In this document: piece by piece, positions 6,019 to 51,325 of the stretch | How positions within the stretch are numbered: the first letter of the stretch is position 1 | Layout: the number at the start of each line of letters is the position of its first letter | Origin: Marinilongibacter aquaticus | GTDB lineage: Bacteria > Bacteroidota > Bacteroidia > Cytophagales > Spirosomataceae | Assembly (NCBI RefSeq): GCF_020149935.1 | Contig: NZ_CP083757.1 | Location: 2,753,501 to 2,817,500 of the forward strand | DNA length: 64,000 bases | Direction: 5' to 3' | Notes under the pieces: generated by a model | The model's input: the letters and a program-made list of their open reading frames with translations, nothing else | Told to the model about the DNA's origin: nothing | Database searches by the model: none | Made by a program: the position numbers and the translations under genes

Positions 6019-6930
6019 ATGCCCACAGGAACACACGATGCCTTGGATGATCCAAGGAACGCCGATGTCAAAATTTTCATCAATGGGGTTTTATTGCCTC
6101 GTCACGACGCCAAGATCTCTGTATTCGATAGCGGGTATTTGGTGGGAGATGGCGTTTGGGAGGCCTTGCGTTTGCACAAAGGGAAATTGCTTTTTTTGGA
6201 GAAGCATTTCGATCGACTGTGGCAGTCGGCAAAAGCCATCGGAATGCGTTTGAGTTTCACGAGAGAGGATTTGGAGAAAAGTATTTGGCAAACGGTAAAG
6301 GCGAATGAAATGTACGATCACGTACATATTCGGGTAATGGTTACGCGGGGCATAAAGAAAACCCCTTCACAAGATCCCCGTTTGACGATATCGGGCCCCA
6401 ATGTGGTGATTATTGCTGAACACAAAGAGGCATCTGGCGAAACCAAAAAGAAAGGCATTACACTTTTTACGAGTACTGTACGGCGTGGTTCGCCCGACTA
6501 TCTCGACCCTCGCTTGAATTGCCACAGCAAACTGCACGAAGTGCAAGCTCTTATTCAAGCTTTGGAAGCGGGTGCCGATGAAGCTCTGATGCTCGATATA
6601 AACGGCTTTGTGTCTACTTGCAATTCGACAAACTTTTTCATGGTCAAAGGACAAGAAGTATGGACATCCACAGGGCAGTATTGCATGAACGGGATAACAC
6701 GCGGAAATGTAATCGCACTTTGCCAGCAAAACGGAATTGTCTGCCGAGAGAAAAATTTCTCTTTGTTTGATGTCTATGGAGCAGACGAAGCCTTTGTTAC
6801 AGGTTCTTTTGGTGGGCTTACTCCTGTAAATAAAATAGACGGACGAGAAATAGGCCCCGGTGGTTTTGGGCCGATTACGAATAAAATAAACCAACTGTAC
6901 GAGAATTTAATAAAGGAAGAAAGCAAGTAA
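6019..6930 (+). CDS. Class IV aminotransferase-like protein (BCAT-like) lacking canonical PLP residues
   Basis: A 303-residue protein with the fold-type IV aminotransferase layout: FINGVLLPRHDAKISVFDSG, GDGVWEALRLHKGKL, and GITRGNVIALCQQNG near the C-terminus. A hand alignment places the usual PLP-binding Lys at R165 (in DPRLNCHSK) and the usual Glu after the NG turn at T200 (FVSTCNSTNFF), so ordinary transaminase chemistry is doubtful; K171 lies six residues further on. It stops 1 bp before the sulfotransferase-like gene. As far as I recall, plants have 'BCAT-like' proteins in which the same two domains are fused, which supports a joint function. The reaction is unknown. Confidence 0.75.
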   Translation: MPTGTHDALDDPRNADVKIFINGVLLPRHDAKISVFDSGYLVGDGVWEALRLHKGKLLFLEKHFDRLWQSAKAIGMRLSFTREDLEKSIWQTVKANEMYDHVHIRVMVTRGIKKTPSQDPRLTISGPNVVIIAEHKEASGETKKKGITLFTSTVRRGSPDYLDPRLNCHSKLHEVQALIQALEAGADEALMLDINGFVSTCNSTNFFMVKGQEVWTSTGQYCMNGITRGNVIALCQQNGIVCREKNFSLFDVYGADEAFVTGSFGGLTPVNKIDGREIGPGGFGPITNKINQLYENLIKEESK

Positions 6931-6931
6931 A

Positions 6932-7657
6932 ATGGACAACATAAAACGCATTTGTATGTGGTCGGGACCACGAAATATCTCTACCACTTTGATGTACGCT
7001 TTTGCTCAACGAGCCGATACGAAAGTATTTGATGAGCCGCTTTACGGCTATTATTTGAAAAATTCGAATACAGAGAAAAGCCATCCTTTGGCTGAAGAAA
7101 TAATGGACCAAATGGAATGCGATGGCGAAAAGGTGATTGCTGAAATGTTGGCCGATCAATCGAACCCCGTGCTTTTTTACAAACACATGAGCCATCATTT
7201 GCTGGAGCTCGATTTGTCTTTTATGAAAAAGACATTGAATATTCTTTTGACAAGAAATCCCGTGGAAATGTTGCCCTCGTATGATGCCGTTATTCAATCG
7301 CCCAAAATTGCCGATGTCGGTTATCCGCAGCATTTGGATCTGGTTCGGTATTATCAGGAAAATGATATCCCTTTTTGGGTCTTGGATGCCGAGCTTGTGT
7401 TAAGAGATCCGGAGGGGCAATTGAGAAAACTGTGTGCGGCCTTGGGTTTAGAATTTGATGAAGCCATGCTTTCTTGGCCCAAAGGCGGTCGTGTCGAAGA
7501 TGGCATTTGGGCTCCGTATTGGTACAAGAATGTGCAGAACTCGGAAGGCTTTATGCCCTACAAAGCCAAAACGACTCCTTTTCCAGAGCATCTGCACACT
7601 CTTTTAGACGAAGCTCAACCGCTTTACAATGAGCTACGCATGATAGCCCTAAAGTAA
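6932..7657 (+). CDS. Sulfotransferase-like P-loop protein
   Basis: A 241-residue cytoplasmic protein starting with MDNIKRICMWSGPRNIST, where SGPRNIST corresponds to the 5'-phosphosulfate loop of sulfotransferase-like P-loop proteins. Other conserved pieces are FDEPLYGYYL, ECDGEKVIAEML, FLAST-type helix LLTRNPVEMLPSY and a C-terminal EDGIWAPYWYKNV. Such proteins are often annotated loosely as sulfotransferases or as branched-chain aminotransferase-like. It is directly coupled to the class IV aminotransferase-like gene (1 bp gap), and the two probably work together. The substrate is not known; the gene ends 1 bp before the convergent DUF4377 lipoprotein. Confidence 0.75.
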   Translation: MDNIKRICMWSGPRNISTTLMYAFAQRADTKVFDEPLYGYYLKNSNTEKSHPLAEEIMDQMECDGEKVIAEMLADQSNPVLFYKHMSHHLLELDLSFMKKTLNILLTRNPVEMLPSYDAVIQSPKIADVGYPQHLDLVRYYQENDIPFWVLDAELVLRDPEGQLRKLCAALGLEFDEAMLSWPKGGRVEDGIWAPYWYKNVQNSEGFMPYKAKTTPFPEHLHTLLDEAQPLYNELRMIALK

Positions 7658-45497: not shown

Positions 45498-45838
45498 CCG
45501 CCTCAGAGTCTCCGTCAGGGACTCCGCTGTACAGGGCAAAGGCTTATCGGGCCACACTATTCCAATATGGAATAGCATTTAGGGTTTAAACATATGCCCG
45601 AAATGCATTTCTCCGTAGATTGTCGTTTTATTGGCTTTGCCCTAATCTTCAAAACCATGCGAATATCCTTTTACTGCTCTTCAGGGCCACCATAGCCCAG
45701 GCCCAGATGGTAGGCAGCGAACAGACCCAAAGCAAAACCCTTTACACGGGCACCTTTACCGTAGGCGGAGACAAGGACACCTATTATCCGGTGGTCTTCC
45801 CCTGTGGAGTCCCTTACGGAGACTCGGCAGGGGGACAA
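45498..45838 (+). repeat. Leader unit copy A (about 341 bp)
   Basis: First of three near-complete copies of a ~350 bp unit (others at 46619 and 49310). It opens with palindrome P1 (CAGAGTC-TCCGTCAGG-GACTC), then a conserved non-coding stretch with the hairpin ATTCCA-ATA-TGGAAT, then a leader ORF, and ends at palindrome P2 (45799-45833). About 11 bases are missing within the signal-peptide codons compared with copies B and D. Confidence 0.85.
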
Positions 45839-45865
45839 AAACAATCGAACATCCCAGTAATTTGA
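45657..45865 (+). pseudogene. Leader protein of copy A, frameshifted
   Basis: The ATG at 45657 matches the leader start of copies B and D, but a deletion just after it removes part of the signal peptide and shifts the frame. The downstream frame still encodes QAQMVGSEQTQSKTLYTGT and GDKDTYYPVVFPCG, then ends at a stop after QKQSNIPVI. No effector follows; the next gene is an immunity-type gene. It is probably a dead copy. Confidence 0.7.
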
Positions 45866-45899
45866 ATAAAAAAATTAGCGAAACAACCGTATTTATACA

Positions 45900-46586
45900 A
45901 TGAAATATTTACTGACAAAATATGTATTTAAAAGATCAATAACGGGAAGCGATTGGCAAATTAGGCCTGCCCCCAAAGGGGCAGATCGAAACTGGTTTAA
46001 TAAGCCTACTAATTATACACAAATTAAATTCGATGAATTTCCTGATTTTATTCCGGATGCTTATTTTGAGTTGGATGAAAAAGGAAAATTTACAGATATT
46101 ATTCGTATTTCAAATACACACGCAAAAGGCTTTTTGGTAAGTCCAAGGGTAAGGGAATTATGGAACGATTTTATTTTGTTGGATCATCAATATTACCCCG
46201 CAACAGTGGTAGCAGAGAGTGGTGAAAAACGTGACTATTTTTTATTTCACATGGCTGCTCAGGATATTAAAGGTTTAGATTATGAAAAGTCCGTTTTTAA
46301 CGATTGTAAACAATTAATTCAGACTAATGATGATGGTTCGCAAGTTTTTGTAGAAACTAAAATAGGTAGGTTAATAGAACGAATACTCCCAACGAAGCCG
46401 CCTCGTTCGTTGGCACTTAAAAAGTTATACTTTGATGAAAAATTCCCTGGGTATGATCTGTTCTATATCCCCTTTTTTATGGTTCTGGAAGATTTTTTTA
46501 TTTCAGAACGGTTGGCAACTGTTATGCAGCGGGAGAAGATGACTGGTTTAGTGTTTGAGGAGCAAAGTATAATTGATGAGTTCTAA
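45900..46586 (+). CDS. Orphan immunity-type protein (Imm11/DUF1629-like)
   Basis: A 228-residue protein without signal peptide. Two segments recall the Imm11 (DUF1629) family: GFLVSPRVRELWNDF with a YFLFHMAAQDIKGLDYEKSV segment, and the C-terminal FFISERLATVMQREKMTGLV. It is preceded only by the dead leader copy A, so no cognate toxin is left. Such orphan immunity genes are common in polymorphic-toxin loci and protect against toxins from relatives (family knowledge). The name is based on my memory of the family pattern. Confidence 0.6.
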   Translation: MKYLLTKYVFKRSITGSDWQIRPAPKGADRNWFNKPTNYTQIKFDEFPDFIPDAYFELDEKGKFTDIIRISNTHAKGFLVSPRVRELWNDFILLDHQYYPATVVAESGEKRDYFLFHMAAQDIKGLDYEKSVFNDCKQLIQTNDDGSQVFVETKIGRLIERILPTKPPRSLALKKLYFDEKFPGYDLFYIPFFMVLEDFFISERLATVMQREKMTGLVFEEQSIIDEF

Positions 46587-46618
46587 AGCTGGATAAAGAT
46601 ATGGATGTAATCCTTTGT

Positions 46619-46970
46619 CCCCTCGCAGAGTCTCCGTCAGGGACTCCGCTGCACGGGGCAAAGGCTTATCGGGCCACACTATTCCAATATGGAATAGCAT
46701 TTAGGGTTTAAACATATGCCCGAAATGCATTTCTCCGTAGATTGTCGTTTTATTGGCTTTGTCCTAATCTTCAAAACCATGCGAAATAAACAAATTATCC
46801 CTTTACTGCTCTTCACAGCCACCATAGCCCAGGCCCAGATGGTAGGCAGCGAACAGACCCAAAGCAAAACCCTTTACACGGGCACATTTACCGTTGGCGG
46901 AGACAAGGACACCTATTATCCGGTGGTCTTCCCCTGCGGAGTCCCTTACGGAGACTCGGCAGGGGGACAA
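46619..46970 (+). repeat. Leader unit copy B (352 bp)
   Basis: Complete copy: P1 (CCTCGCAGAGTC-TCCGTCAGG-GACTCCG), the conserved region with ATTCCA-ATA-TGGAAT and GTTTAAACATATGCCCG, the leader gene start, and P2 at 46931-46965 (13-base arms with one mismatch). It is nearly identical to copy D. Confidence 0.88.
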
Positions 46971-46988
46971 AAAATCAAGATGAGTTAA
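46779..46988 (+). CDS. Leader protein B: signal peptide plus conserved short domain
   Basis: A 69-residue protein beginning MRNKQIIPLLLFTATIAQAQ, a signal peptide with cleavage after AQA, followed by MVGSEQTQSKTLYTGTFTVG and GDKDTYYPVVF. It ends PCGVPYGDSAGGQKIKMS; the PCG...GGQ part is encoded by palindrome P2. The segment GTFTVGGDKDTYYPVVF resembles the start of fibre-like or exported repeat proteins. The following DUF3289-like effector is in another frame: one extra A in the A6 run at 46969-46974 would fuse them. Confidence 0.65.
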   Translation: MRNKQIIPLLLFTATIAQAQMVGSEQTQSKTLYTGTFTVGGDKDTYYPVVFPCGVPYGDSAGGQKIKMS

Positions 46989-47158
46989 TATTAGCTTGTT
47001 GTCAAAATAATTCAAATTCTGGGCGTCAGAATAGAGAAGGATGTATTTCAATCATCCAAGAATTAATTAAATTAAAAAATGAAGAATTAGAGAGTTTTCC
47101 TGAGCCAGGATTTGAGCCGTATATTATAGCTTTCTCGGCCAAAAGGCCAGGATTTAAT

Positions 47159-47860
47159 TTGGATGGTTCACTGGCAGTTGATTTGGTATATTGTGATAAA
47201 ACCAAAGAACAGATACTTGCCCAATATCCCCAAATCCCCAGTGGACTTGTGGACAAAGCAGACGACCTGCTGTTCGATGACATGAAATTTTTGAAAGTAG
47301 GGGCCTACAATTTTGTTTTAAAGGAGAATTTTGATATGATGGTGCAGCATTTTCGGGATAACCAAGGAACCCCTTACAATAACTATCATCTGGATAGGGC
47401 AGCGGAGAAAACGGAAGACTTCAAGCGTTTCCTTGCGGATATCGAAAGAAGTATGAAATATGAACTAAAACTGGATTCGAAGTTTTTTCATAACAAGGGT
47501 GTTTTAAATTATGTTAATGAAAATAATGAAAAACAAATTGGGCATGAAATACTAAGGCCAAAGGTTCAAGGCTATAATGGTCTTTCAATTGCTGTAAATG
47601 ACACTTGGGCATACGATGTGAAAATTGTGGGCTTGAAGGTTTCTGTACCGGAAAAATATTTTTATGCTCATCTGGAAATCACCGTTTGGGATCATTTCGG
47701 TCTTGACGACCTCGATATTGACCCTGATGAAAAGCCTCTATATGCCCGTTTCCCGGGTTTTGATTCTTGGTATATTCTGCAACATAAAATAGGAAAGTGT
47801 TACAAGCCATTCATTACAGAATTGCGTTTTAAACCAATGACTGGAGGTAAATATGACTAA
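47159..47860 (+). CDS. DUF3289-like effector, N-terminally truncated or frameshifted from its leader
   Basis: A 233-residue frame. Its core matches my recollection of DUF3289: MVQHFRDNQGTPYNNYHLDR, GLSIAVNDTWAYDVKI, ITVWDHFGLDDLDID, DSWYILQHKIGKCYKPFIT. DUF3289 is otherwise best known in Enterobacterales and is linked to effector-like proteins. The listed start is TTG at 47159, but the frame is open without a stop back through 46970 into palindrome P2, so the real N-terminus may be the leader protein. It overlaps its partner gene by 8 bp. Confidence 0.65.
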   Translation: MDGSLAVDLVYCDKTKEQILAQYPQIPSGLVDKADDLLFDDMKFLKVGAYNFVLKENFDMMVQHFRDNQGTPYNNYHLDRAAEKTEDFKRFLADIERSMKYELKLDSKFFHNKGVLNYVNENNEKQIGHEILRPKVQGYNGLSIAVNDTWAYDVKIVGLKVSVPEKYFYAHLEITVWDHFGLDDLDIDPDEKPLYARFPGFDSWYILQHKIGKCYKPFITELRFKPMTGGKYD

Positions 47861-48374
47861 GAAATTATCGGCAGCTTTAATAATCGGAATCTTGCTTGTC
47901 TATTTTGGAGCTAGATTATTTTGCAAGCCAAGAATTATTTTAATAGGTTGTGATTTTGATGAAAGCAAGGGACGATTGGTTGAGTCTTACTTTATTGCTT
48001 TCCCACCACAAGACGAAGAAAAATTCATTGATGTAATGGGTGATTTTATCCCGAATAATGAAATAATTGGTTTAAGTCTAAAAGCAAAAAATTATCGGAT
48101 ACAATATTTTTATAAAGAAACTCTAATTTTTAATAGATGGTATTATAAAGGCTTTTTGCATGGCGGCATTGACCCATCTAATGTTTTGACTGACCCAATT
48201 CAATTTCGAAAATATTTACTTGGACGCACACGATTAACTGATAATGTATCAGAGTGTAATCCTTGTGCTTATACCCCAAGTTATTCATTGTATTATGAAG
48301 ATAAGGTCCGGGTGTACAGCCCGAACGGTTGGGAAGGCAACAGGGATTTGAAATGGAAGGAGTTTGAGCACTAA
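47853..48374 (+). CDS. Membrane-anchored putative immunity protein for the DUF3289-like effector
   Basis: A 173-residue protein with one N-terminal membrane helix (LSAALIIGILLVYFGARLF) and a periplasmic or cytoplasmic remainder of unknown fold. It begins 8 bp before the end of the DUF3289-like gene (ATGACTAA overlap), a typical effector/immunity arrangement. An anchored immunity protein would suit a toxin that acts on the cell envelope (inference). Composition is AT-rich like the rest of the cassette. P1-type palindrome copy C follows 24 bp after the stop. Confidence 0.55.
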   Translation: MTKKLSAALIIGILLVYFGARLFCKPRIILIGCDFDESKGRLVESYFIAFPPQDEEKFIDVMGDFIPNNEIIGLSLKAKNYRIQYFYKETLIFNRWYYKGFLHGGIDPSNVLTDPIQFRKYLLGRTRLTDNVSECNPCAYTPSYSLYYEDKVRVYSPNGWEGNRDLKWKEFEH

Positions 48375-48397
48375 AGTTTATGGTTTAGACATTGAGT

Positions 48398-48430
48398 CCC
48401 CTCCCAGAATCTCCGTCAGGGATTCCATGG
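48398..48430 (+). repeat. Degenerate P1 palindrome
   Basis: CCCCTCCCAGAATCTCCGTCAGG and GATTCCATGG follow the P1 pattern with several changes. It lies directly after the anchored immunity gene, as at the other cassette ends. Confidence 0.7.
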
Positions 48431-48448
48431 AGTTAAAGAAATAAACAC

Positions 48449-48680
48449 ATGTATAAACAAAAAATATATCTTCTGTTTGGCCTGTTTTGGGCTAAAGACC
48501 CAACTGATCGGCAGCGAACAGACCCAAAGCAAAACCCTTTACACGGGCACATTTACCGTTGGCGGAGACAAGGACACCTATTATCCGGTGGTCTTCCCCT
48601 GTGGACAAACAGACGGGCAAAGCATACACCCTTTCTCAATTCCGGCAAGCATTTCCCGACTTAATAGTAAAAATATATGA
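48449..48680 (+). pseudogene. Leader-related protein, copy C, frameshifted
   Basis: The ATG at 48449 starts MYKQKIYLLFGLFWAKD, a signal-peptide-like start different from the MRNKQII type. A one-base shift then puts the conserved part in another frame: QLIGSEQTQSKTLYTGTF and GDKDTYYPVVFPCG, followed by QTDGQSIHPFSIPASISRL. P2 is missing: after CCTGTGGAC the sequence diverges. It overlaps the next gene's start by 4 bp (ATGA). The intact ancestor was probably a leader-effector fusion. Confidence 0.6.
48506..48607 (+). repeat. Leader-core repeat, copy C (partial)
   Basis: About 100 bp nearly identical to the core of leader units A, B and D (from GGCAGCGAACAGACCC to CTTCCCCTGTGGAC), but without the upstream non-coding part and without P2. 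Confidence 0.8.
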
Positions 48681-49087
48681 ATAATTACAACAGATTTGAT
48701 TTTACCCCAATAACAATTGACGAGCTATTGGCTCTGTTTAATTCGAATAAAACAATTAGGTCCGGGGGGATCAGTGTTTTTCAAGACTCCATAGGCAAAC
48801 CTGGGGATATAATCTATACCCTGACATCTATAGACAAACATGGCAATGACACGATAGAGTTCAGATTTGGAAGGGACAGAATATCCATTAAAGATCCCGA
48901 TTATATGGTTTCCAATCAAAACATGATTTGTGTGGGCAATTGCTCAACAGTTGACTGGCTGTACAATCCATCAATACACCTTCTCTACGAAATGATAGGA
49001 GATCATTTGAAAACAAGCTCCTTAAAAGGTGATCACTCCTTCCGGACCAAGGAAAATAGGGATGCTTTTAGGTTTTATGGGTGGTAG
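48677..49087 (+). CDS. Unknown small protein, immunity-type position
   Basis: A 136-residue cytoplasmic protein with no family I recognise. It starts MNNYNRFDFTPITIDELLAL and has no signal peptide or membrane segment. It overlaps the end of the copy C leader frame by 4 bp and is followed by a perfect P1 palindrome, so its position equals that of the immunity genes of the other cassettes. Confidence 0.55.
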   Translation: MNNYNRFDFTPITIDELLALFNSNKTIRSGGISVFQDSIGKPGDIIYTLTSIDKHGNDTIEFRFGRDRISIKDPDYMVSNQNMICVGNCSTVDWLYNPSIHLLYEMIGDHLKTSSLKGDHSFRTKENRDAFRFYGW

Positions 49088-49110
49088 GCGACGCTGTTCT
49101 AAAACTTTTC

Positions 49111-49145
49111 CCCTCGCAGAGTCTCCGTCAGGGACTCTGCGAGGG
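49111..49145. repeat. Perfect P1 palindrome
   Basis: CCCTCGCAGAGTC (49111-49123) and GACTCTGCGAGGG (49133-49145) are exact inverted complements around TCCGTCAGG. It is the best copy of the palindrome that begins each leader unit and lies after each cassette. It could also terminate transcription, but no T run follows. Confidence 0.9.
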
Positions 49146-49198
49146 TTATCTTAAATAATATGGCTGTTAAAGTGAAACGTAAGCCTTGTTTTTTTCCC

Positions 49199-49230
49199 GT
49201 CTCAGAGCCTCCGTTAGGTACTCTGTCGAG
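49199..49230. repeat. Decayed P1 palindrome
   Basis: CTCAGAGCCTCCGTTAGG and TACTCTGTCGAG are a worn copy of P1, 54 bp after the perfect copy; only CAGAG/CTCTG arms remain. Confidence 0.6.
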
Positions 49231-49264
49231 AAATCTCTGAGGACAAATAAGAAAAAGAAAACAC

Positions 49265-49309
49265 ATGAATAAACAAAAGATATACATCCTGTTTGCTCTG
49301 TTTTGGTTC
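49265..49309 (+). pseudogene. Truncated signal-peptide start cut by leader unit D
   Basis: ATG at 49265 encodes MNKQKIYILFALFWF, closely similar to the MYKQKIYLLFGLFW start of copy C. It is cut off at the exact first base of P1 of copy D. This shows that copy D entered, or recombined into, an older leader gene. Confidence 0.6.
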
Positions 49310-49661
49310 CCCCTCGCAGAGTCTCCGTCAGGGACTCTGCTGTACAGGGCAAAGGCTTATCGGGCCACACTATTCCAATATGGAATAGCATTTTGGGTTT
49401 AAACATATGCCCGAAATGCATTTCTCCGTAGATTGTCGTTTTATTGGCTTTGCCCTAATCTTCAAAACCATGCGAAATAAACTAATTATCCCTTTACTGC
49501 TCTTCACAGCCACCATAGCTCAGGCCCAGATGGTAGGCAGCGAACAGACCCAAAGCAAAACCCTTTACACGGGCACATTTACCGTTGACGGAGACAAGGA
49601 CACCTATTATCCGGTGGTCTTCCCCTGCGGAGTCCCTTACGGAGACTCGGCCGGGGGACAA
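49310..49661 (+). repeat. Leader unit copy D (352 bp)
   Basis: Complete copy with P1, the conserved upstream region with ATTCCA-ATA-TGGAAT, the MRNK start and P2 at 49622-49656. It differs from copy B by a handful of bases. The next base after the unit is the first base of an effector frame that continues the leader frame. Confidence 0.88.
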
Positions 49662-49868
49662 CCAACTCACACGAGAGGCAAGGATGGGAATGAATACACG
49701 GGTGGCCAAATTTTCAAATTGATTGATGTGATTGGTGACGAAAGGTTCACGCTGGGTAATTTCTTTGGATATAAACCTCAAGTCGATAAAGGCGTTTCGC
49801 CATATGCGAAAGATATCGAAAAGATGAAAGTTATTTTTGAACTTAAAAACGGATTTGATGGGGACTAA
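49470..49868 (+). CDS. In-frame leader-effector fusion (copy D)
   Basis: A 132-residue secreted protein: signal peptide MRNKLIIPLLLFTATIAQAQ, the conserved leader (MVGSEQTQSKTLYTGTFTVD, PVVFPCGVPYGDSAGGQ), then a C-terminal domain from PTHTRGKDGNEYTGGQ to ELKNGFDGD. The join lies exactly at the edge of palindrome P2. The C-terminal domain is about 70% identical to the protein at 50461. The function of the domain is unknown; its place before a lipoprotein gene suggests effector and partner. Confidence 0.7.
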   Translation: MRNKLIIPLLLFTATIAQAQMVGSEQTQSKTLYTGTFTVDGDKDTYYPVVFPCGVPYGDSAGGQPTHTRGKDGNEYTGGQIFKLIDVIGDERFTLGNFFGYKPQVDKGVSPYAKDIEKMKVIFELKNGFDGD

Positions 49869-49871
49869 AGC

Positions 49872-49885
49872 TATATATATATATA
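49872..49885. repeat. (TA)7 microsatellite at a gene start
   Basis: Seven TA units sit between the ATG at 49858 and the lipoprotein signal segment. The ATG is one frame off; loss of one TA unit would restore the frame. Confidence 0.8.
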
Positions 49886-49901
49886 TTCACTTTGTTTATT
49901 A

Positions 49902-50345
49902 TTGTTTGGATGCAGGGCCAAAGATTATGAACGTCATATTTTCATACCTGATGGATATGAAGGGCCTGTCAAGATTCAGTTTGAAGTGGAAACCTCAAAG
50001 AATAAAATAATCAAATACAGAGAAAATGGAGAAGATAAGGCGTTTTTTATTTTCATCACAGGTGATCCAAGACTTTATGAGGTATGCGATGAGCCTATGC
50101 CAAGTGGATATTATACAACCCATAGCTATTATTATTCTTATGACACCCTATATGAAATTAACACAAATGGAAGTATGAGTGACGTATTAGATTCAAAATA
50201 CCCGATTGCGGCCAACCATGGAACATTGGGTGCTGTAAACACAGGACTATCCAGCTATTTCTGGGTTTACAGAGATGAAAACACGGACAGCAAAAGGGAT
50301 TCGTTGACAGTTGCGGCGGATAGTTTATGGGCAAGCCAGCAGTAG
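49902..50345 (+). CDS. Lipoprotein partner of the copy D effector, start possibly phase-variable
   Basis: A 147-residue frame with a lipobox-type segment SLCLLLFGC and then IFIPDGYEGPVKIQFE, which recalls DUF6843-like domains, and SYFWVYRDENTDSKRDS. The TTG at 49902 is a nominal start inside the signal; the natural start is the ATG at 49858, which overlaps the end of the effector gene as in the paralogue, but the (TA)7 tract throws it out of frame. It is about 60% similar to the 50687 protein. A protective outer-membrane lipoprotein role is inferred. Confidence 0.6.
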   Translation: MFGCRAKDYERHIFIPDGYEGPVKIQFEVETSKNKIIKYRENGEDKAFFIFITGDPRLYEVCDEPMPSGYYTTHSYYYSYDTLYEINTNGSMSDVLDSKYPIAANHGTLGAVNTGLSSYFWVYRDENTDSKRDSLTVAADSLWASQQ

Positions 50346-50346
50346 C

Positions 50347-50460
50347 CGCAGCCCCCCGAGCATCGATTATAATCTGAATATTCAATTACGTGAGGATGGC
50401 TATTATTTTATCTAAGGTGTTTGGGATGGCTTTCTTGCCATAGAGGTTTTTGTAGAGGAC
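50347..50460 (+). pseudogene. Remnant of the N-terminal part of the second effector
   Basis: The frame of the 50461 gene continues upstream as PPSIDYNLNIQLREDGYYFI, then a TAA at 50413-50415, then GVWDGFLAIEVFVED. This looks like the end of a larger exported protein's repeat domain, now interrupted by the stop. Confidence 0.55.
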
Positions 50461-50706
50461 ATGGAAACGGGCAAAGTGGATTTGATCTATGAAAAAAAAC
50501 CAACACATACCAGAGGCAAGCAAGGGAATGAATACACAGGTGGCCAAATATTCAAACTGATTGATGTGATTGGTGACGAAAGATTTACAATAGGAAACTT
50601 TTTGGGCTATAAACCCCATACCGACAAGAGTGTTTCACCCTATTTGAAGGACATTGAAAAAATGAAGGTATTGTTTGATCTTAAAAATGGATTTGGTGCT
50701 GATTAG
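50461..50706 (+). CDS. Second small effector domain, leaderless
   Basis: An 81-residue protein starting METGKVDLIYEKKPTHTRGK and continuing YTGGQIFKLIDVIGDERFTI to LKNGFGAD. From PTHTRGK on it is homologous to the effector half of the copy D fusion, so the fusion point of copy D can be read exactly. It lacks a signal peptide; its original N-terminus is broken by the TAA at 50413. It may be silent or a donor for recombination (inference). Confidence 0.55.
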   Translation: METGKVDLIYEKKPTHTRGKQGNEYTGGQIFKLIDVIGDERFTIGNFLGYKPHTDKSVSPYLKDIEKMKVLFDLKNGFGAD

Positions 50707-51178
50707 AAACGCATTTTTAGGTTTTATTTTTGGAATGTTCCTTATTGGCTGCAGACCTGAGGATGGTTGTGAATGTCATTACTTTGTTCCTGATGGTTAT
50801 GAAGGTCCAGTAATAATAAAATATGAGGCAGAAAATTCCAATAATAGAATGATCAAATATGGAGATAAAGTATTTTTTGTTTTTATTACGGGAGATCCAT
50901 CCAAATTTGAATTGAGAGATATTCATTTGCCTAGGTGTTATTTTCAATACCACACCTATTACTATTCAAAAGACACCTTGTATGAAATCAATACAGCCGG
51001 TGGCATGGGAGATGTATTAGATTCGAAATATCCTCTTGCATCTCAACATGCAACATTAGGTGCTGTAAATACAGGAATGTCCGCTTATTTTTGGGTTGAT
51101 AAAGATGAAAATACAGAAGATAAAAAAGATTCGTTAATAAATGCCGCCAAAAAATTATGGGAAATGGGAAGAGAGTAA
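50687..51178 (+). CDS. Lipoprotein partner of the second small effector
   Basis: A 163-residue lipoprotein; the ATG at 50687 overlaps the effector gene by 20 bp and starts MDLVLIRNAFLGFIFGMFLI followed by the lipobox Cys. It then shows YFVPDGYEGPVIIKYEAE and AVNTGMSAYFWVDKDENTED, homologous to the 49902 frame. The intact signal peptide shows what the first copy should look like. It ends with an in-frame stop followed by the open remnant at 51179. Confidence 0.65.
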   Translation: MDLVLIRNAFLGFIFGMFLIGCRPEDGCECHYFVPDGYEGPVIIKYEAENSNNRMIKYGDKVFFVFITGDPSKFELRDIHLPRCYFQYHTYYYSKDTLYEINTAGGMGDVLDSKYPLASQHATLGAVNTGMSAYFWVDKDENTEDKKDSLINAAKKLWEMGRE

Positions 51179-51325
51179 TTTAGTTTAGCTAAAGGCCATA
51201 CAGGTGCTACAAAGAAAATCACCATTTCAATGGACACGGGCAGTTCTGGGGAGTTTGGCCTTGAGTATATATTCGAGAAGTTAGCGGAAGGTTCCCAACC
51301 AATAAAATCTATTTTGGTAAAATAA
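51179..51325 (+). pseudogene. C-terminal remnant of an exported repeat protein
   Basis: Directly after the lipoprotein stop and in the same frame, 48 codons encode GATKKITISMDTGSSGEFG and YIFEKLAEGSQPIKSILVK before a stop. It looks like the C-terminal domain of a large secreted protein and not like the lipoprotein. It has no start codon of its own. Confidence 0.5.

Follow-up and report, generated by a model that had tools for sequence, protein, structure and literature searches.

The aminotransferase-like protein AT of Marinilongibacter aquaticus appears, on strong support from its aligned relatives, to have lost both the lysine that forms the Schiff base with PLP and the glutamate that contacts N1 of the PLP ring. 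It is encoded beside a sulfotransferase-like protein, ST, and the evidence strongly supports a conserved functional AT–ST pair, kept across several bacterial phyla. The reading that we favour, at a probability of about 0.4, is that AT would catalyse a PLP- or PMP-dependent step, free of a Schiff-base lysine, on an amino acid sulfonated by ST.

The gene pair and the fold of AT

The window (the whole stretch of DNA that was analysed, 64,000 nucleotides) contains the two genes where the initial annotation had put them, on the same strand and separated by 1 bp. The genes and the codons discussed below are:

6019–6930, + strand: AT, class IV (fold type IV) aminotransferase-like protein of type A, 303 aa (open reading frame, PF01063)
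6932–7657, + strand: ST, Sulfotransfer_5 (ST5, PF19798) protein, 241 aa (open reading frame, PF19798)
6511–6513, + strand: codon of R165, the earlier candidate for the lysine position; R or K in type A
6517–6519, + strand: codon of N167, the Schiff-base lysine position (HMM of lysine-bearing relatives, N174K mutant, invariance)
6529–6531, + strand: codon of K171, the position of the canonical Tyr (lysine-bearing rows have Tyr)
6616–6618, + strand: codon of T200, the position of the Glu contacting pyridine N1 (HMM; invariant in type A)

AT matches PF01063 over the full domain with 156.5 bits (cut-off 28.5). Among NCBIfam models it matches many for branched-chain aminotransferases (BCATs) and D-amino-acid aminotransferases (D-AATs), each below its curated cut-off. 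The nearest PDB chain is 7z79 (phmmer, E 6.8e-100), an 'aminotransferase-like' protein of Variovorax paradoxus. An AF2 model of AT based on 47 relatives (mean pLDDT 77.5) superimposes on 7z79 with Z 32.0 and 48% identity, and on BCATs with Z of about 28; together with the PF01063 match this assigns AT to fold type IV. The active-site loop 155–172 of the model has pLDDT below 50, so we draw no distance argument for N167 or K171 from it. A single-sequence AF2 fold was poor (pLDDT 38.7) and was discarded.

Residues lost from the PLP site

To locate the active-site columns we used an HMM built solely from 47 lysine-bearing relatives, which places N167 in the lysine column and T200 in the glutamate column. 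The ungapped phmmer alignment with the Archaeoglobus BCAT 5mqz likewise sets its lysine opposite N167 and its glutamate opposite T200. In addition, the aligned chains of 7z79 and of its sister entry 9j32 ('mutant N174K') differ exactly at the asparagine that matches N167. AT thus has neither the Schiff-base lysine nor the N1-contacting glutamate of class IV aminotransferases, as had been proposed from the sequence of the window, and the assignment of T200 to the glutamate position stands on both the profile and the 5mqz alignment. The lysine position itself had been placed at R165, and this has to be moved to N167: R165 would require a two-residue gap relative to 5mqz-type enzymes, and both the profile and 9j32 favour N167. 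K171, named in the initial annotation as the residue whose alignment with the Schiff-base position would count against the loss, falls in a different column, occupied by Tyr in 44 of 46 lysine-bearing rows and by Lys in all type A rows. We take this Tyr to be the residue that touches PLP O3' in E. coli IlvE.

The altered site is invariant among the relatives of AT. N167, C168, H169, S170, K171 and T200 are identical in 102/102 of them, and at position 165 there are 99 with R and 3 with K.

A clade of lysine-less proteins

In a tree of 116 proteins, the lysine-less sequences, which we sort into types A, B and C, lie together on one side of a branch with support 100/99. Type A, to which AT belongs, has N167 and T200, and its gene precedes ST. 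Type B has an invariant H167, keeps E200, and mostly has ST directly in front of AT (for example, L161:4271-5173 and L152:4687-5607). Type C, which includes 7z79, has N167, S or T at 200 and R or K at 171, and is without ST in the loci read. Type A groups with type C (support 100/99), the latter not being a single group, since three rows split off before the remaining type C and type A. Type B carries Leu or Gln at position 171, and Arg stands there in 7z79 and further rows of type C. K165 of type B was considered as a relocated lysine; this is unlikely, because some members have H, N or Q there.

AT and 7z79 have the same fold and are about 48% identical; both carry Asn at the lysine place and a Ser/Thr residue at the glutamate place, and they fall together in the clade apart from the lysine-bearing enzymes. 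The two differ in that 7z79 has Ser where AT has Thr at the glutamate place, and Arg where AT has Lys at position 171. They differ also in setting, the 7z79 subfamily lying near uptake transporters for amino acids or other compounds and without an ST5 neighbour in the loci read. The lysine-less fold itself is already known, the structure of this relative having been in the PDB since 2022. Type A occurs in Bacteroidota and, by the titles of the contig records, also in Chloroflexota, Calditrichota, Neomarinimicrobiota and Verrucomicrobiota; no relatives were found in the viral contigs searched.

The phosphate cup and constraint on AT

The columns of R66, I226-T227 and S/T263, which we take to form the PLP-phosphate cup with roles as in IlvE and D-AAT, are conserved in type A, in type B and in nearly all lysine-bearing rows, as are the substrate-side R105 and R110. 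AT has the Arg, the Ile-Thr and the Thr/Ser of the cup, and the alignments thus show this predicted site to be retained. AT shares fold type IV, the cup and full-length similarity with BCATs (IlvE; 5mqz, 5e25) and D-AAT (1daa), but differs from them in the missing Schiff-base lysine and N1 glutamate and in the Lys that replaces the O3' Tyr.

At least 98% identity was found at 134 of the 303 positions of AT among the 102 relatives. Identity to the proteins of the window is 69–79% for the AT relatives and about 46–62% for most of their partner STs. The number of near-invariant positions and the higher conservation of AT than of ST argue that AT is under strong constraint and is not a decaying gene.

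Pairing of AT with ST

AT is followed by ST in 98 type A loci, with one on the opposite strand, and ST is followed by AT in 24 type B loci. The genes often overlap by a few bases among the relatives. No ST was found beside any of the lysine-bearing rows of this locus count. The single departure from this simple pattern is three Anaerolineae loci in which a lysine-bearing class IV gene is upstream of the AT–ST pair. The protein encoded there, directly upstream of the pair, bears both the Lys and the Glu (L059:5018-5926, L060:4966-5919, L101:5064-5915).

We surveyed co-occurrence in 395 genomes of the phylum, counting types A or B as AT. An ST5 protein is present in 53 of the 61 genomes with AT and in 2 of the 334 without it, both of the latter hits being weak (Fisher p 1.7e-54, kinship among genomes ignored). 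All eight AT genomes without ST5 fall in one family (f30), which shows that some lineages do without ST. In two genomes both genes are kept although they are unlinked, lying on separate contigs in one (G203) and far apart in the other (G231). Only three genomes of a Chloroflexota sample gave a strong ST5 hit, and AT is present in each of them, whereas three genomes with a 53%-identical AT, which S200 and R171 mark as type C, lack ST5. The conserved pairing suggested in the initial annotation is thus borne out by the survey and by both gene orders, and we are confident that AT and ST form a functional module. That they are mere neighbours with no shared function, for which nothing speaks beyond the lack of a known pathway, is the least probable of the readings that we considered, because the pairing occurs with either gene in front, spans several phyla, and both genes are retained when unlinked.

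ST and the supply of PAPS

The description of the downstream neighbour as sulfotransferase-like holds as well. ST matches PF19798 over the full domain with 147.9 bits (cut-off 23.2), and its PAPS-binding motifs, P13-R14-N15-x-S17-T18 (5' loop) and R108...S116 (3' phosphate), are intact, with P13, R14, N15, S17, T18, R108 and S116 conserved in types A and B. An APS kinase is encoded in the same genome, so PAPS can be made. The only PDB match of note to ST is 4gox, short and weak (E 0.0045) and listed as a polyketide synthase; we take it to be a sulfotransferase domain, the sulfate being removed by a subsequent elimination. In a tree of ST proteins the type A and type B labels are clustered and do not form clean clades, with bootstrap values not settled. 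Similarity to ST also finds Sulfotransfer_5 (PF19798) proteins of Streptomyces clusters, annotated as sulfotransferases. These, however, are just 25–27% identical to ST, and the AT gene is absent beside them in the stretches read.

Genomic context and substrate

In Paracoccus and Pantoea the type C gene comes immediately after amino-acid ABC transporter genes; in Paroceanicella and Ruegeria such transporters are near it, and in Dinoroseobacter it comes after a TRAP transporter. In family f30, the type B gene that is without ST directly follows an amino-acid-permease-like gene at four loci, of which three were checked with Pfam:

L144:2907-5267, L151:2917-5191, L156:2824-5068, L157:4070-6323: permease and type B gene of f30

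The distant ST relatives without AT are found in Streptomyces stretches with adenylation-domain genes. The transporter, permease and adenylation-domain neighbours point to an amino-acid-type small molecule, which is probably the substrate.

No conserved wider operon was found around type A; the other neighbours vary and recur within lineages only, and they single out no substrate. In about ten loci of Cyclobacterium/Lunatimonas type, thrA, thrB and thrC-like (homoserine/threonine) genes precede the pair, and the closest of them ends a median of 1.3 kb from it (L034:1136-2083, L105:27-2471, L106:4433-5836). Five type C loci (L164, L165, L166, L167 and L168) are plasmid records, and a racemase, an enolase-superfamily protein or a pyrroline-5-carboxylate reductase is encoded near the type C gene in them. 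Elsewhere in the window, positions 8267–18605 hold a likely catabolic run with DUF7133/cytochrome c, ThuA, a xylose-isomerase-like TIM barrel, a mandelate-racemase family protein, a glyoxalase and a hydroxyacid-dehydrogenase-like protein. Positions 45620–51180 (about 5.5 kb) have short open reading frames only (<240 aa), with no tRNA and no Rfam match. None of the PADLOC defence models was matched.

A possible reaction and its alternatives

The internal-aldimine lysine is nearly a defining feature of PLP enzymes. The retained phosphate cup, taken together with the loss of the lysine, suggests that AT holds PLP or PMP without an internal aldimine; chemistry of this kind we rate at somewhat short of even odds. 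AT would bind PLP, PMP or a PLP-amino-acid aldimine with no covalent link to the protein, and N167, H169, K171 and T200 could assume acid-base roles. ST would sulfonate a small substrate of the amino-acid type using PAPS, and the sulfonated compound may be either the substrate of AT or its product. The sulfate ester might then serve as the leaving group in an elimination or replacement step. In fold-type II PLP enzymes a Ser/Thr contacts N1; T200 at this place resembles them, a likeness that speaks for elimination or replacement rather than transamination. A precedent for a PLP fold that works without the Schiff-base lysine is ColD, a PMP-dependent dehydratase with His instead of Lys, a residue that type B shares at this position. 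ColD-type dehydratases, however, are of fold type I and act on sugars, and we do not claim homology.

The alternative closest in probability, though still unlikely, is that AT is a pseudo-enzyme without PLP chemistry, which serves the sulfotransferase as a scaffold or as a subunit for binding or regulation. The joint loss of both signature catalytic residues in type A and the tight, often overlapping gene pairs are what one would expect of such a subunit. A scaffold, however, would need neither an intact phosphate cup nor the substrate-side arginines; type B keeps the Glu, and type B (in f30) and type C occur without ST in amino-acid transport settings. Improbable to a further degree is a relocated lysine: K171, which lies a helix turn further along and takes the place of the O3' Tyr, would form the Schiff base, and AT would be a transaminase with a rebuilt site. 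The identity of K171 in every type A relative and its alignment with a PLP-touching residue of canonical enzymes are consistent with this. The Arg found at this position in 7z79 and type C, and the Leu or Gln in type B, argue that the clade overall is independent of K171; nor would position 165 provide the lysine, because Arg is unable to form a Schiff base and some type B members have H, N or Q in place of K165.

We regard it as very improbable that AT works as an ordinary aminotransferase of branched-chain or D-amino acids. Its Pfam and NCBIfam matches to class IV, BCAT and D-AAT models would suggest so, but it stays under every listed NCBIfam cut-off and the lysine is absent in all its relatives. 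Furthermore, the genome encodes other class IV proteins, including a longer one at C1:3294077 that we take to be the cell's own IlvE, and the cell thus has no need of AT as its BCAT. Among these readings we continue to prefer a lysine-free PLP or PMP step on a sulfonated amino acid, and find it plausible that the pair performs a new reaction, as the initial annotation had supposed.

Likeness to plant proteins and implications

The Arabidopsis proteins At3g05190 and At5g27410 are, we presume, BCAT-like proteins that carry a sulfotransferase domain at the N terminus, that is, the same two domains joined in one chain, in keeping with the plant fusion mentioned in the initial annotation. The order of the domains in this fusion would match type B, whereas in type A the genes come in the reverse order and encode separate proteins. 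A literature search on the bacterial AT–ST pair found no paper, and searches for the Variovorax aminotransferase-like protein, for At3g05190/At5g27410 and for PF19798 with aminotransferases yielded nothing useful. If the pair sulfonates an amino acid to activate it and carries out a PLP or PMP reaction on it without a Schiff-base lysine, this would be an undescribed two-enzyme pathway of several bacterial phyla, and also of land plants if the presumed fusions are homologous; in this full form we hold the proposal only tentatively and think it doubtful.

The labels 'branched-chain aminotransferase' that are given from a family hit alone are suggested to be wrong for the lysine-less proteins. 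The AT–ST pair is also a place to seek an unknown sulfonated metabolite, and new cofactor chemistry may be sought in this large, highly conserved clade, which is without the lysine, keeps the phosphate cup and has a link to a sulfotransferase.
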